A stretch of 64,000 nucleotides of DNA from positions 21,016-85,015 of the forward strand of contig JAUJNI010000001.1 of assembly GCA_030446465.1 (NCBI GenBank). The letters run 5' to 3'. This DNA comes from Actinomycetota bacterium. Lineage in GTDB: Bacteria > Actinomycetota > CADDZG01 > WHSQ01. The position numbers and the translations under genes are program-made. Positions 21,082-41,272 of the stretch are shown here, piece by piece. Below the pieces are notes generated by a model that was not told where the DNA came from, ran no database searches, and saw only the letters and a program-made list of their open reading frames with translations. How positions within the stretch are numbered: position 1 is the stretch's first letter; each line of letters opens with the position of its first letter.

Positions 21082-22911
21082 CTATGGGTTGGGCCCCAGA
21101 ACCCTCTCGTCACCTTGCCGCACGGTCGCACCCGTTTGATCGAGCCATTCGGACAACGGCACCGCATACTTCCGTGACGTCCCGAGCAGGTCCCGGATCC
21201 CGGCGACCGATACGGGTCCGGATCGTTTGATGTGGTCCCGCACCGTTGCCCGGGCCTGGCGCGCCTGTTCGGCGGTCAGGTAGAAGTCGCCAACCTTCAC
21301 GAGCTCGCGGCCGTCCGTAAGGGCACGCAGAAGGTCGGCGTCGGCGTCGAGGTCCTTGGCCAGCGGAGGGGTAAAGCCGGCCGACTCGATTTGCGCCAGG
21401 ACGGCGCGCCGCACCCTCTGCTGGTCCTGGGACATGACGACCGAGTGAGACGACAGTCGAACGAGGGCTCGCTCCTGCACCACCTCGGGCATAACCTCCA
21501 AGAGCGCGTCGAACCCCTCGGGCGCCAGCTTCGTCGTTGCCCGAAGAGCCTCCCGGGGCATCCCCCGGTCGAGCGGCCGGTTCGCATGGTGACTGCTCAA
21601 CGCCCCAAGAACCTGTGTACGGAGGACATCGAGATGCCCCTTGGACACGAGTAGGGGGCCGAGTGCGACGATCTCGTCGGATGGTTCCGTCGCACCCGAG
21701 CGGACGAGTGCGACGCGCGCCTCGACGGCCCCCTCCGCGTTGACGATGGCCGTCAGCGCCTCACTTGGCTCGGCATTCGCGAGCTGCCCGAGGAGCTCTA
21801 AACGCGCATTGTCTGAGCGATTCGTTGCCCGGGGCAAGGGGTCGAGAACCGCTCCACCTCCGAAGGTCAACACGCGGCCGGCGTCGCGTAGTACGAACTT
21901 GTCTCCTCTCGCGAGGGGCAGGGAATCCCTCAGATGAAGCTGGGCGAATCCGCTTTCGCCACCTTTGAGGCTGGCGCGCCCGTACAGCTTTATGCGCACG
22001 GGAGTCTCGGCGGACCCGACGTACAGAAGATGGGCGCCTTTCTCGGATAGCTCGTGCTGGGAACCCGTCGCCCACGCCGGCAGAACCCGTACTTGGGCGT
22101 CCACGCGCCTCGTGATCCTCCATGTGCCCGGGGTCACCACCGCGTCCCCCCGCTCGGCCCCCTGCCTCGACAATCCGACCAGGTTGAGCGCCACTCGATT
22201 GCCCGGCTCGATGAACGCAACCTCCTTCTTGTGGCTCTGAATCGATCGCACTCGAGCACGCCGCGCCTCGGGCGAGATCTCGATCTCCTGTCCTGCTCGA
22301 AGAGAGCCTCCAGCGAGCGTGCCCGTGACCACCGTTCCCGCCCCCGCAATGGTGAAGACGCGGTCGATCCACAGCCGCGGTCGTCCAAGGTCGGGCAGCA
22401 GAGGAGCGGACGCGACGACTCGGTCGATCGCCGCCACGAGGTCATCCATACCGTGGCCCGTTACAGGTGAGCAGGGAACGATCGGCGCATTCGCAAGGGA
22501 GGAGCGTGCGAGCTGCTCTTCCGTTTCGGCGGTGGCAAGCTCGAGGGTCTCGGCGTCGACCGTGTCTGACTTGGTAAGGGCCACTACGCCGGAGGTCACT
22601 CCCAGCACCTCGAGCACCGCCAGATGCTCTGTGCTCTGGGGCATCCAGCCCTCGTTTGCAGCGACCACGAATAGGCAGATGGACACCCCTCCGGCGCCGG
22701 CGAGCATGTTCTTGATGAATCGCTCGTGTCCCGGAACGTCGATAAGGCCGATCTCGCGCCCTGAGGGAAGTGGGAGCCACGCGAACCCAAGGTCGATGGT
22801 CAGGCCTCGTCGCTTCTCCTCGGCGAAACGGTCGGGGTCGATCCCCGTGAGTCGCTCGACGAGCGTCGATTTTCCGTGGTCGACGTGACCGGCGGTGCCG
22901 ATTACGTGCAT
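21082..22911 (-). CDS. selB: Selenocysteine-specific elongation factor SelB
   Basis: 609 residues. EF-Tu-like G domain with TAGHVDHGKSTLVERLTG (G1), IDVPGHERFIKNML (G3) and ALTKSDTVD (G4); domains 2 and 3 to about residue 345; then winged-helix repeats to the C-terminus that bind the SECIS hairpin. SelB delivers Sec-tRNA(Sec) to UGA codons. ATG 22911 is chosen because MHVIGTAGHVDHGK is the canonical start; the open frame begins 18 codons earlier. Divergent from fdhD with 52 bp between. With selA, tRNA-Sec and a selenoprotein gene also in the window, Sec insertion is clearly active here. Confidence 0.96.
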   Translation of the reverse strand: MHVIGTAGHVDHGKSTLVERLTGIDPDRFAEEKRRGLTIDLGFAWLPLPSGREIGLIDVPGHERFIKNMLAGAGGVSICLFVVAANEGWMPQSTEHLAVLEVLGVTSGVVALTKSDTVDAETLELATAETEEQLARSSLANAPIVPCSPVTGHGMDDLVAAIDRVVASAPLLPDLGRPRLWIDRVFTIAGAGTVVTGTLAGGSLRAGQEIEISPEARRARVRSIQSHKKEVAFIEPGNRVALNLVGLSRQGAERGDAVVTPGTWRITRRVDAQVRVLPAWATGSQHELSEKGAHLLYVGSAETPVRIKLYGRASLKGGESGFAQLHLRDSLPLARGDKFVLRDAGRVLTFGGGAVLDPLPRATNRSDNARLELLGQLANAEPSEALTAIVNAEGAVEARVALVRSGATEPSDEIVALGPLLVSKGHLDVLRTQVLGALSSHHANRPLDRGMPREALRATTKLAPEGFDALLEVMPEVVQERALVRLSSHSVVMSQDQQRVRRAVLAQIESAGFTPPLAKDLDADADLLRALTDGRELVKVGDFYLTAEQARQARATVRDHIKRSGPVSVAGIRDLLGTSRKYAVPLSEWLDQTGATVRQGDERVLGPNP

Positions 22912-22963
22912 CACCGCACGATACGGCGTGTGGCCCCAAAGTGGACCGTGATTTGATGGGAGC

Positions 22964-23863
22964 ATGAGGGCGGACCGGGCTCTAGGACCACTCGACGCGT
23001 CGGGGCAGCAGCGGGAGGAGAGGGGCGGAGTCGGCAGCGCGATAAAGGCGCGCGTTTACGTCGTAGACGGCGACACCAACCGAGAGCGCTTCGATCGCCT
23101 CGCGGCCGAAGAACCCCTCGAGATCAGGGTGCGATCGGCAGGGGAAGCAAGGACGGCAACCGTCACGATGCGGACGCCGGGCAACGACTTCGAGTTGGTC
23201 GCGGGCTGGTTGCACTCAGAGGGTGTCGCTAGAGGCCGCAAGGACATCGCCAGGATGGCGTACTGCATCGACCGAAGCCGTGGAGAGGAACAGCTCTACA
23301 ACATCGTTAACGTCGATCTCGCGCCCGAGGTCGATGCCGACATCCGTTCCTTCGAGCGGAGCTTCTTTACTACGAGCGCGTGTGGTGTGTGCGGCAAGGC
23401 GGGGCTTGAGCAGCTCCAGACCCGCGGCTGCCTGCCTCTCACCGGCGGCCCCACAATAGATCCCGCGGTCATCTACTCGCTGCCGGACAAGCTGAAGGAG
23501 TCACAGCGCGTGTTCGAGGCCACCGGCGGTCTCCACGCGGCCGCGTTGTTCGACTCGAGCGGCGACCTGCTGGCGCTCCGTGAGGACGTCGGTCGCCACA
23601 ATGCTCTCGACAAGCTCGTCGGCTGGGCCCTGTTGGGCGGCCGCCTGCCGCTAAAGGATCACCTCGTGATCGTCAGCGGTCGTGCGAGCTTCGAGCTGGT
23701 GCAGAAATGCGTGATGGCGGGGGTCCCGGCCATGTGCGCCATCTCGGCCCCCAGTAGCCTGGCAGTCGACCTCGCCCGGCACTTCGGTGTGACGCTCATC
23801 GGCTTTCTCAGGGCCAGACGGTTCAACATCTACTCCTGCCCCCAACGGGTTATTGCGCCATAA
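22964..23863 (+). CDS. fdhD: Formate dehydrogenase accessory sulfurtransferase FdhD
   Basis: 299 residues. TTSACGVCGKAGLEQL holds the CxxC that moves sulfur from the cysteine desulfurase IscS to the molybdenum cofactor of formate dehydrogenase. Other blocks: NDFELVAGWLHSEG, FEATGGLHAAALFD, REDVGRHNALDKLVG and IVSGRASFELVQK. Its position between selB and selA implies that a selenocysteine-containing formate dehydrogenase is made by this organism, encoded outside the window. The first ~25 residues are poorly conserved, so a later start is possible. Confidence 0.95.
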   Translation: MRADRALGPLDASGQQREERGGVGSAIKARVYVVDGDTNRERFDRLAAEEPLEIRVRSAGEARTATVTMRTPGNDFELVAGWLHSEGVARGRKDIARMAYCIDRSRGEEQLYNIVNVDLAPEVDADIRSFERSFFTTSACGVCGKAGLEQLQTRGCLPLTGGPTIDPAVIYSLPDKLKESQRVFEATGGLHAAALFDSSGDLLALREDVGRHNALDKLVGWALLGGRLPLKDHLVIVSGRASFELVQKCVMAGVPAMCAISAPSSLAVDLARHFGVTLIGFLRARRFNIYSCPQRVIAP

Positions 23864-24049
23864 GTCCCGATCGGGTCTAAAGCGGTCCGGCTGCGCTGCC
23901 GATAGGTCAGGTGCAAGCACCGCTCCTCAGAATTAGTTGGGACGGCACCTTGCCCCCGTCGAGAACCGGGCCCTCCCCCGGTCCGATAGAGAGAAGCGGC
24001 CGACGTCCCCGGCCGCTTCTCTGCTTATGGGGGGGTCCTTGACTCCGAA
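23864..24049. terminator. Convergent fdhD/selA gap with strong hairpin (bidirectional terminator)
   Basis: The best structure is a 13-bp perfect stem, AGAGAAGCGGCCG (23990-24002) with CGGCCGCTTCTCT (24010-24022), loop 7 nt. A smaller stem ACCGGG (23965-23970)/CCCGGT (23977-23982) stands just before it, and GGTGCAAGCACC (23910-23921) is a further palindrome. No clear U-tract follows either strand. The row of stems could also belong to a small RNA; nothing known was matched. Confidence 0.55.
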
Positions 24050-25444
24050 TCACGCTGTGGCCAGCGCGTTGGTGACCAGTGCCAGGAGTTGCGGGTCCTG
24101 TCCGGGTGGGACGCTGCGGAGGTCGAGCAGCAGGCGGTCGTCGGCGATGCGCCCGATGACCGGGGTCTCCGCATGCCTGAGGGCGCGGCCGAGCTCCGCG
24201 GCGCTCCTTTCGCCGTGGTCGAGCGCGATGGCCCACGAAGCCAGCTCCTCTCCCGGCAGTGATCCTCCACCCGTAACCGACGCCACCGGCTGAGCTTCTG
24301 CCTTGAGGCCCTTGTTCGCAGCGGACAGAGCCTCGGCAAGGTGCTTCGCTCGGGCCTCGAGCTCTTCGGTGGCAGCCAGAGCCATGCTCCATAGCGGAAG
24401 ATCCGTGAGCCTGTCCTCCATGTGGGCCCTCAAGGTCTCTTCCAGCGCTGCAAGCGTCATCTTGTCGACTCTCACCGCGCGGAGAAGCGGGTGCCGGGCG
24501 ATCTTTTCAACCAGGGGGCCACGTCCCAGGATGATGCCGGCTTGCGGGCCGCCGAGCAGCTTGTCCCCCGAGAAGGTCACGATGTCTGCGCCGTCCGAAA
24601 GGGCGACGTCCACGAGCGGCTCCTCCCGAGCCCAACTGGCTCCGGCGGGGGCGGACATGAAGCCCGAGCCGACGTCGTGGATGAACGGTATGCCCGTGCT
24701 CCGAGCCAGCTCCCCAAGCTTTCTGGCGGGCACCGAGGCGGTGAAGCCGACCACGCGGTAATTGGAGGGGTGAACCTTCAATATCGCCGCAGTGGCGTCG
24801 GTCACTTTCGAGCGGTAGTCGGCAAGACGGGTCCTGTTCGTGGTCCCGACTTCTACGAGCCTGGACCCCGACAGGGCCATGACGTCCGGGATGCGAAACT
24901 CACCGCCGATCTCGACCAGCTCTCCTCGGCTGATCAGAACTTCCTTTTCTGCGCACAACGCGACCAGCGTCACAAGGACCGCCGCGGCGTTGTTGTTGGT
25001 GACCAGTGCGGCCTCCGCTCCGGTGAGGGCGGTTAGCAACTTTGCTGCGTGGTCGTAACGGCTGCTGCGCCGGCCCTCTTCGACGTCGTACTCGAGGTTC
25101 GAATAAGACCCAGCGATCTCGACTACGGCATCTAGCTGCCGCCTGCCCAGAGGGGACCTTCCCAAGTTGGTGTGGATCAATACACCTGTGGCATTGATCA
25201 CGGGACGCAGCAGCGTTTCACTTTCTTGATCGACGATCTTTTTAGTCGCGTCGACGATCTGATCGAACGAGGGCGCAGGCCGGCCCTGTCTAATCGACTG
25301 GCGGGCAAGGTCGATAGCTCGTCGTGCGGCGGGCCCTGCGCCGCGCTGGTCTGCCGACGCACCGAGTCCGCGTAGCACTCGGTCTACCGAGGGCAACGAT
25401 CGCAAGCTTTGGTGTACTTCGTCTCGCGCGTGCTCAGGTGGCAT
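24050..25444 (-). CDS. selA: L-seryl-tRNA(Sec) selenium transferase SelA
   Basis: 464 residues, usual length. PLP enzyme that converts Ser-tRNA(Sec) to Sec-tRNA(Sec) with selenophosphate. N-terminal domain RSLPSVDRVLRGLG; then INATGVLIHTNLGRSPLG, TNNNAAAVLVTLVAL, FIHDVGSGFM and FSGDKLLGGPQAG with the PLP lysine. The start overlaps the end of an upstream response regulator gene by 11 nt, so the two share a transcript. selD was not found in the window. Confidence 0.96.
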   Translation of the reverse strand: MPPEHARDEVHQSLRSLPSVDRVLRGLGASADQRGAGPAARRAIDLARQSIRQGRPAPSFDQIVDATKKIVDQESETLLRPVINATGVLIHTNLGRSPLGRRQLDAVVEIAGSYSNLEYDVEEGRRSSRYDHAAKLLTALTGAEAALVTNNNAAAVLVTLVALCAEKEVLISRGELVEIGGEFRIPDVMALSGSRLVEVGTTNRTRLADYRSKVTDATAAILKVHPSNYRVVGFTASVPARKLGELARSTGIPFIHDVGSGFMSAPAGASWAREEPLVDVALSDGADIVTFSGDKLLGGPQAGIILGRGPLVEKIARHPLLRAVRVDKMTLAALEETLRAHMEDRLTDLPLWSMALAATEELEARAKHLAEALSAANKGLKAEAQPVASVTGGGSLPGEELASWAIALDHGERSAAELGRALRHAETPVIGRIADDRLLLDLRSVPPGQDPQLLALVTNALATA

Positions 25445-38717: not shown

Positions 38718-38808
38718 GGAGGCGAATGGGGGCTGGTGTCCCTCCCGGTCTTCAAAACCGGTGCGCCGAGGAGACTCGGTGGGCGGGTTCGATTCCCGTC
38801 CGCCTCCG
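38718..38808 (+). tRNA. selC: tRNA-Sec (anticodon TCA)
   Basis: 91 nt without encoded CCA. Anticodon loop CTTCAAA (38750-38756), anticodon TCA at 38752-38754, on a 5-bp stem CCGGT/ACCGG. D arm GGGGG/CCCTC. Long variable arm with stem CCGAG (38766-38770), loop GAGA, CTCGG (38775-38779). T arm GCGGG-TTCGATT-CCCGT. Acceptor GGAGGCG (38718-38724) pairs with CGCCTCC (38801-38807), and position 8 is an A-C mismatch; discriminator G at 38808. The long variable arm and 8+5 acceptor-T axis are typical of bacterial tRNA-Sec. Reads UGA as selenocysteine together with SelA and SelB. Confidence 0.97.
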
Positions 38809-38996
38809 CTACAACGCTCCGGCGGACCTGAACACTCGACGGCAACCGCTGTTAGAGCGTTTCCGAATGTAGAACGCGCCTTTCAGGTGCTGAGCTCGGT
38901 CGCGGTGAGCGCTGATCTCGTTTCTTTGGGTGAGACTGTCCTCTAGGCGGACAGCCGTCGGGAAAGAAGGCACAGGCTCTTGTCCTCGCCGCGTCC

Positions 38997-40627: not shown

Positions 40628-40822
40628 GACTGGAGTCTCGCGTGTTTACGGCAACTGGTTCCCCTGAGAACAGTCTCGTTCGTGAGTTCGCTCCACCTGC
40701 GGTATGAAGACATGGTTCAGCAGCAGAGCCGCTCAGGTACGGCAGTCACCAACCTTTCCGAATCTCTAGACCGCCCGTTTGTGGTCGTCACCGACCCCGA
40801 TGCCATGAAAGGAGGGTCAAGG

Positions 40823-41272
40823 ATGGATGAGACGCCTCGAGAGGCTGCACAAGAGCGCGTTGGCCGGCCCCCCGCCGATGAGCGCCTAAAACGGCCCCTT
40901 CTCCTTTACGAGGACGACTGACCGTTCTGTAGCGCGGCGGCGAGGTTCGTCGCCAAGGTCGATAAGAAAGAGCGATTGTCGATGCTGCCCTACGACGATC
41001 CAGAGGCGGCACGCTGGGTGGTTTTCCTGACGGAGGGAGAGGTCGAGGGCTCGTGGCGCCTGGTCGAGCCGGACGGACGTCGCCTGACCAAGGGGGAGGC
41101 GGGCATCGCCTTGCTCGAGCACATCGATGCGACCAGGTGGCTGGGGCGCCTTCTTGGGATGCTGCACCTCACCCGGGTGGTTGGCGCGATTGATTGGGTT
41201 ATCTCCAAGCTGAGACCGACCCTCAGCCGGTTCGTCGACAAGGGCCCGCCGTTTAGACGGCCTCCGGTATAG
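40823..41272 (+). CDS. Selenoprotein: DCC-family thiol-disulfide oxidoreductase with UxxC
   Basis: 150 codons with an in-frame TGA at 40919-40921 (codon 33) read as selenocysteine; 149 residues. The sequence around it is LLLYEDD-U-PFCSAAARF, matching the DCC-family motif YDxDCPFC with Sec for the first Cys. Downstream, DGRRLTKGEAGIALLEHI and the C-terminal helical part also fit the family. ATG 40823 lies 6 nt after GAAAGGAGGG, an ideal ribosome site, so translation starts before the TGA. The frame is the same on both sides, both sides are conserved, and a hairpin with GGU loop follows. Function: redox-active thiol/selenol enzyme in the cytoplasm; substrate unknown. Confidence 0.85.
40936..40954 (+). 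promoter_or_regulatory. Candidate bacterial SECIS hairpin
   Basis: GGCGGCGA (40936-40943) pairs with TCGTCGCC (40947-40954): 8 bp with one G-U, loop GGU (40944-40946). The loop begins 22 nt after the last base of the TGA. Bacterial SECIS elements have a short apical loop with a leading G, commonly GGU, about 16-37 nt past the UGA, bound by the SelB C-terminus. Confidence 0.7.

Follow-up and report, generated by a model that had tools for sequence, protein, structure and literature searches.

DCC1-like oxidoreductases as a probable unlisted selenoprotein family of Actinomycetota and Chloroflexota, with selenocysteine at one or both positions of the CxxC motif

The DCC1-like gene in the 64,000-nucleotide stretch of actinomycetotal DNA analysed here (the window) very probably encodes a selenoprotein with selenocysteine (Sec) at residue 33 of its active site, judging from the sequence of the gene and of its relatives. 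The comparative pattern of TGA codons in other DCC genes is the strongest evidence for this, and it widens the finding from one gene to an unlisted family; DCC as a genuine selenoprotein family is better supported than the single window gene. We also regard as highly likely a fuller picture in which DCC1-like proteins form an unrecognised selenoprotein family of Actinomycetota and Chloroflexota, whose known Sec members mostly have two Sec residues in the active site (UxxU) and one hairpin, its apex lying about 25–27 nt after the first UGA. Sec and Cys would have been interchanged repeatedly at each motif position (UxxU, UxxC, CxxU and CxxC), and in many members the codons of a conserved Trp-Val pair form the apex, which points to an influence of the RNA signal on the protein sequence. 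The preliminary description of the window had proposed a UxxC selenoprotein rather than two broken ORFs, and every computational check that it put forward came out in favour of that reading; it missed the many UxxU and CxxU relatives, the unusual residues before the motif and the only moderately convincing character of the window gene's own SECIS element.

The frame of the window gene (M...LLLYEDD-TGA-PFC...PPV-stop) contains this TGA as its sole internal stop, and the good ribosome site described earlier is indeed present before the ATG (Table 1). When residue 33 is taken as Cys, the full-length protein reaches 37.1 bits against PF04134 (cut-off 27.8), and the match covers residues 27–135 and profile positions 1–111 of 113. 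The family similarity therefore spans the TGA, in agreement with the earlier statement that the frame is unchanged and family features lie on both sides; with the stop left in the frame, the score is 27.2 bits, just under the cut-off. Just four columns are invariant in an alignment of 36 DCC proteins, and residues 33 and 36 occupy two of these, so that the TGA falls, as claimed, on the first Cys of the CxxC motif. The window protein retains all four columns (Sec33, Cys36 and the other two), with its motif, UPFC, at residues 33–36 near the N-terminus. Cys homologues aligned at residue 33, and related genes with TGA or with TGC/TGT at the corresponding codon were found. Just before the motif, the window protein has Glu30-Asp31 where the DCC family has a near-invariant Asp-Gly; as the latter is a typical feature and not a curated criterion of PF04134 membership, we file the window protein, on its profile score and despite the Glu-Asp, as a divergent member of the family. 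It is the sole DCC gene found in its genome.

Coding periodicity is retained downstream of the TGA, where GC1/2/3 are 0.66/0.48/0.80 (GC3 of the neighbouring genes is 0.71–0.76). Ordinary termination at the TGA with two products, the second starting from an internal TTG at 40976, or read-through with another amino acid, is hardly conceivable. An ORF at 40976–41272 does exist mechanically, but neither half keeps the CxxC region together with the rest of the fold, and the 117-residue ORF closed by the TGA has no match in Pfam. General suppression is unlikely too, since TGA is an ordinary stop codon in this genome: it terminates 10 of the 17 recognised genes of the window, so the code is not reassigned, and we rejected genetic-code reassignment on this ground.

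Table 1. Features of the window that bear on the proposed selenoprotein
Feature	Position	Strand	Evidence or remark
selB, selenocysteine-specific elongation factor	21082..22965	-	TIGR00475, 329 bits (cut-off 242)
fdhD, formate dehydrogenase accessory sulfurtransferase	22964..23863	+	NF001943, 309 bits (cut-off 269)
selA, L-seryl-tRNA(Sec) selenium transferase	24050..25444	-	TIGR00474, 519.5 bits (cut-off 268)
tRNA-Sec (anticodon TCA)	38718..38809	+	ARAGORN; Rfam RF01852, 83 bits
Shine-Dalgarno AGGAGG	40810..40815	+	7 nt before the ATG of the DCC gene; read from sequence
DCC1-like (PF04134) putative thiol/selenol-disulfide oxidoreductase gene, 149 aa with Sec33	40823..41272	+	Frame, profile score, alignment, codon periodicity
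UGA codon, proposed Sec33, first residue of the UxxC motif	40919..40921	+	Frame and alignment
TGT codon of Cys36, second residue of the UxxC motif	40928..40930	+	Frame and alignment
SECIS-like hairpin GGCGGCGA-GGU-UCGUCGCC	40936..40954	+	8 bp, 22 nt after the UGA

A PF04134 search of whole genomes, with stops read through, yielded 37 more DCC genes that have TGA in the motif, of which 25 are UxxU, 8 UxxC and 4 CxxU; they belong to Rubrobacteraceae, to other Actinomycetota and to Chloroflexota. With the window gene, the exchange of Cys and TGA codons thus extends across 38 Sec-type genes (25 UxxU, 9 UxxC and 4 CxxU). All 63 of their TGA codons lie at the motif positions and none elsewhere inside the domain; neither TAA nor TAG was seen at the two motif positions among the DCC genes surveyed, and both TGA and TAA occur as natural C-terminal stops. 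Nonsense mutation, sequencing error or a change of code does not make such a pattern.

These observations weigh on two further explanations of the window gene. It might be a decaying pseudogene, a former CxxC protein in which a nonsense mutation fell by chance on the first Cys, as would suit a divergent singleton without the near-invariant Asp-Gly and without an orthologue in its class. We consider this very improbable, since apart from the TGA the frame is unbroken, shows coding periodicity and follows a good ribosome site, and the sole stop in 149 codons sits on the catalytic Cys, where the same exchange recurs in 37 other genes. We give still less credence to a sequencing or assembly error in an ordinary Cys oxidoreductase whose codon is really TGC or TGT: the gene is known from a single assembly, and an apparent frameshift in fdhA of the same genome indicates that errors may occur, but an error here must have struck the one codon where relatives have a functional TGA, with a SECIS-compatible hairpin at the right distance. 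A selenoprotein gene is the reading that we retain.

Among 396 sampled genomes of Actinomycetota, 94 had a DCC gene, and the motif TGA was present in 13 of these besides the window (12 Rubrobacteraceae and G303). The 39 Rubrobacteraceae genomes yielded 12 DCC genes, every one of them Sec-type. Across 400 genomes from the phylum of a Thermomicrobiales MAG, which we take as Chloroflexota, 136 had DCC genes, Sec-type in 23, and a sample of another actinobacterial class added one more (G1015). The named records with a Sec-type gene include this Thermomicrobiales MAG and the complete genome of Rubrobacter marinus SCSIO 52915. The UxxU gene of the latter species (NZ_CP045121.1; L065, L047:3974-4387) appears mechanically as just a 103-residue ORF starting after the TGAs, and it may be mis-annotated. 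We did not accept as Sec codons the in-frame TGAs of G425, G802, G822, G828 and G1150, nor the second TGA in G715 and in G746, all of which are ordinary C-terminal stops that fall inside the profile range.

The Sec machinery is complete in the genome that carries the window gene. The genes for SelA, SelB and tRNA-Sec lie within 20 kb, as first noted and now borne out by profile scores, ARAGORN and Rfam, and the check for a host selD was positive (388 bits; G000:C4, about 510121). This selD has an in-frame TGA of its own (SHGGG-U-ACK), 3' of which lies a hairpin with an apex containing GU (L002:1531-1533). Formate dehydrogenase alpha (FdhA) of the same genome also has Sec (ENQARI-U-HSSTVPGLG; G000:C6, about 630826), and fdhD in the window supports this selenoprotein; downstream, after TSAMAD, fdhA is frameshifted, probably through an assembly error or because the gene is broken. 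In the window, selB and fdhD are divergent with overlapping starts (22964/22965), and with the nearby selA they form a compact selenium/formate dehydrogenase cluster (21082–25444). SelB scored above the cut-off in all genomes with Sec-type DCC genes that were checked (of the Chloroflexota, G397 alone) except G289, G353 and G393, which are only 60–77% complete. Given that most Rubrobacteraceae have SelB anyway, this co-occurrence is a matter of consistency and not a strong association.

Published limits for bacterial SECIS elements are a loop of 3–9 nt with G in the first two positions, a stem of 4–16 bp, a distance of 16–37 nt from the UGA and an energy of at most -7.5 kcal/mol (PMC13188914). 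The hairpin that lies 3' of the window TGA, with the apical loop GGU at 40944–40946 and an energy of -12 kcal/mol, is within these limits, as the SECIS check required, but it is not exceptional, being matched by 15–18% of synonymous shuffles (p about 0.18). A hairpin within the limits was present near the expected place in 35 of 36 Sec genes but also in 41 of 67 Cys genes, which gives the test little specificity, and the SECIS of the window gene taken alone is only moderately convincing. In GC-rich DNA, a test on energy alone across a wide range was of low power; restricting the loop positions to a narrower range helped.

Single-hairpin folding z-scores were unremarkable, and against synonymous-codon shuffles the Sec genes folded better than the Cys genes (mean z -0.99 and -0.15, respectively; rank test p = 1.6e-4, with rows that are not independent and a signal mainly from Rubrobacteraceae). 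The 12 Rubrobacteraceae genes have an 11-bp hairpin, 92.4% paired, with compensatory changes at two pairs altered on both sides, for example G-C to C-G in three genes; its covariation score exceeds those of all 500 shuffles, which is not a probability as the rows are related. In 26 of 36 Sec genes, compared with 9 of 67 Cys genes, the same two codons, for Trp and Val/Ile, provide the apex GGGU or GGAU. It is plausible to suggest that the SECIS element selected these residues, with a contribution from shared ancestry.

In a tree of 102 DCC domains (111 columns, many forks unresolved), the Sec genes fall in several groups: Rubrobacteraceae, Chloroflexota UxxU/UxxC genes, CxxU genes, the UxxU genes of G303, G495 and G727, G599, and the window gene. 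The tree requires at least five changes between Sec and Cys forms, with four at the first motif position and seven at the second. One CxxC gene (G425; L163, L107) is nested among CxxU genes and is a candidate for a recent reversion from Sec to Cys. The genes of G303, G495 and G727 (L038, L128 and L129) come from both Actinomycetota and Chloroflexota and fall together in a supported group, suggestive of horizontal transfer between the two phyla. The window protein is a long branch, weakly placed beside this group (support 82/78), and its highest identity, 30%, is to the protein of G599, which likewise has UPFC. No orthologue was found in 23 other sampled genomes of its class, which leaves a single assembly as the source for the window TGA. 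When 85,000 genomes were scanned directly with the window protein, no close relative came up, and there was none in the order and class samples either.

The suspicion that the family is new holds against both a 2026 catalogue and NCBIfam 20.0. DCC (PF04134) is absent from the 119 prokaryotic selenoprotein families or subfamilies of a May 2026 review (PMC13188914), and no NCBIfam 20.0 model was matched by any of the 36 aligned proteins. The deep-Sep paper (PMC12013277) does not mention DCC, and no paper that combines DUF393 or the DCC family with selenoproteins was found in the open-access literature searched. On sequence grounds, we therefore class DCC as a new selenoprotein family within a known kind, CxxC oxidoreductases with Sec, in which the UxxU form is unusually common. 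The window protein shares the full-length domain and the two motif positions with the Cys form of the DCC1-like (YuxK) family, a predicted thiol-disulfide oxidoreductase with Cys at both positions, whereas Sec-type genes have Sec for one or both motif Cys and the window protein differs further in its Glu-Asp. Prx-like thiol:disulfide oxidoreductase selenoproteins (PF00578; UxxC and UxxU; PMC13188914) likewise have Sec at one or both CxxC positions but belong to a different protein family. Sec-containing thioredoxins and glutaredoxins carry UxxC where the model of the window protein also puts it, at the head of helix 1 of what would be a thioredoxin-like fold; unlike them, DCC has extra C-terminal helices, and its family profile has no sequence match to any solved thioredoxin or glutaredoxin chain.

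A whole family would thereby be added to the bacterial selenoproteome, and its members illustrate that such genes can hide as truncated or split ORFs. Close relatives that between them have all combinations of Sec and Cys at the two active-site positions are a natural series in which to study the effect of the first, the second or both selenium atoms, and the UxxU members a way to ask how a single SECIS can serve a pair of UGA codons 9 nt apart. For the uncharacterised DCC family, the repeated replacement by selenium is a clue that the motif cysteines are redox-active enough to permit it.

No solved chain matched the DCC family convincingly by sequence. In the AlphaFold2 model of the window protein (pLDDT 84.4, pTM 0.78), the motif lies at the start of a helix (34–46) after a strand (26–29), as in thioredoxins, and the best PDB matches found by Foldseek were mostly thioredoxin-fold proteins, all weak (E >= 0.035, none with E <= 0.001). 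From the evidence as a whole we infer Sec insertion, the function of the hairpin as a SECIS element and the catalytic roles, as follows. SelB would bring Sec-tRNA(Sec) to the UGA, the hairpin just downstream would direct insertion of Sec, and the ribosome would read through to give a 149-residue oxidoreductase with the active site Sec33-Pro-Phe-Cys36. Thiol/selenol-disulfide exchange is the likely activity: Sec33, at the head of helix 1 in the model, would attack a disulfide or similar substrate as a selenolate; the resulting mixed selenenyl-sulfide would be resolved by Cys36, and a cellular thiol system would then re-reduce the protein.

The Sec genes have no conserved gene neighbourhood, and the Rubrobacteraceae neighbourhoods gave no partner. 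Two Cys relatives have an HTTM membrane domain fused to DCC, which points to a possible membrane-associated partner, and an HTTM gene adjoins one Rubrobacteraceae Sec-type gene. The occurrence of DCC fused to or beside these vitamin K carboxylase-like membrane domains (L144, L032 and L042) may be a clue to the substrate.
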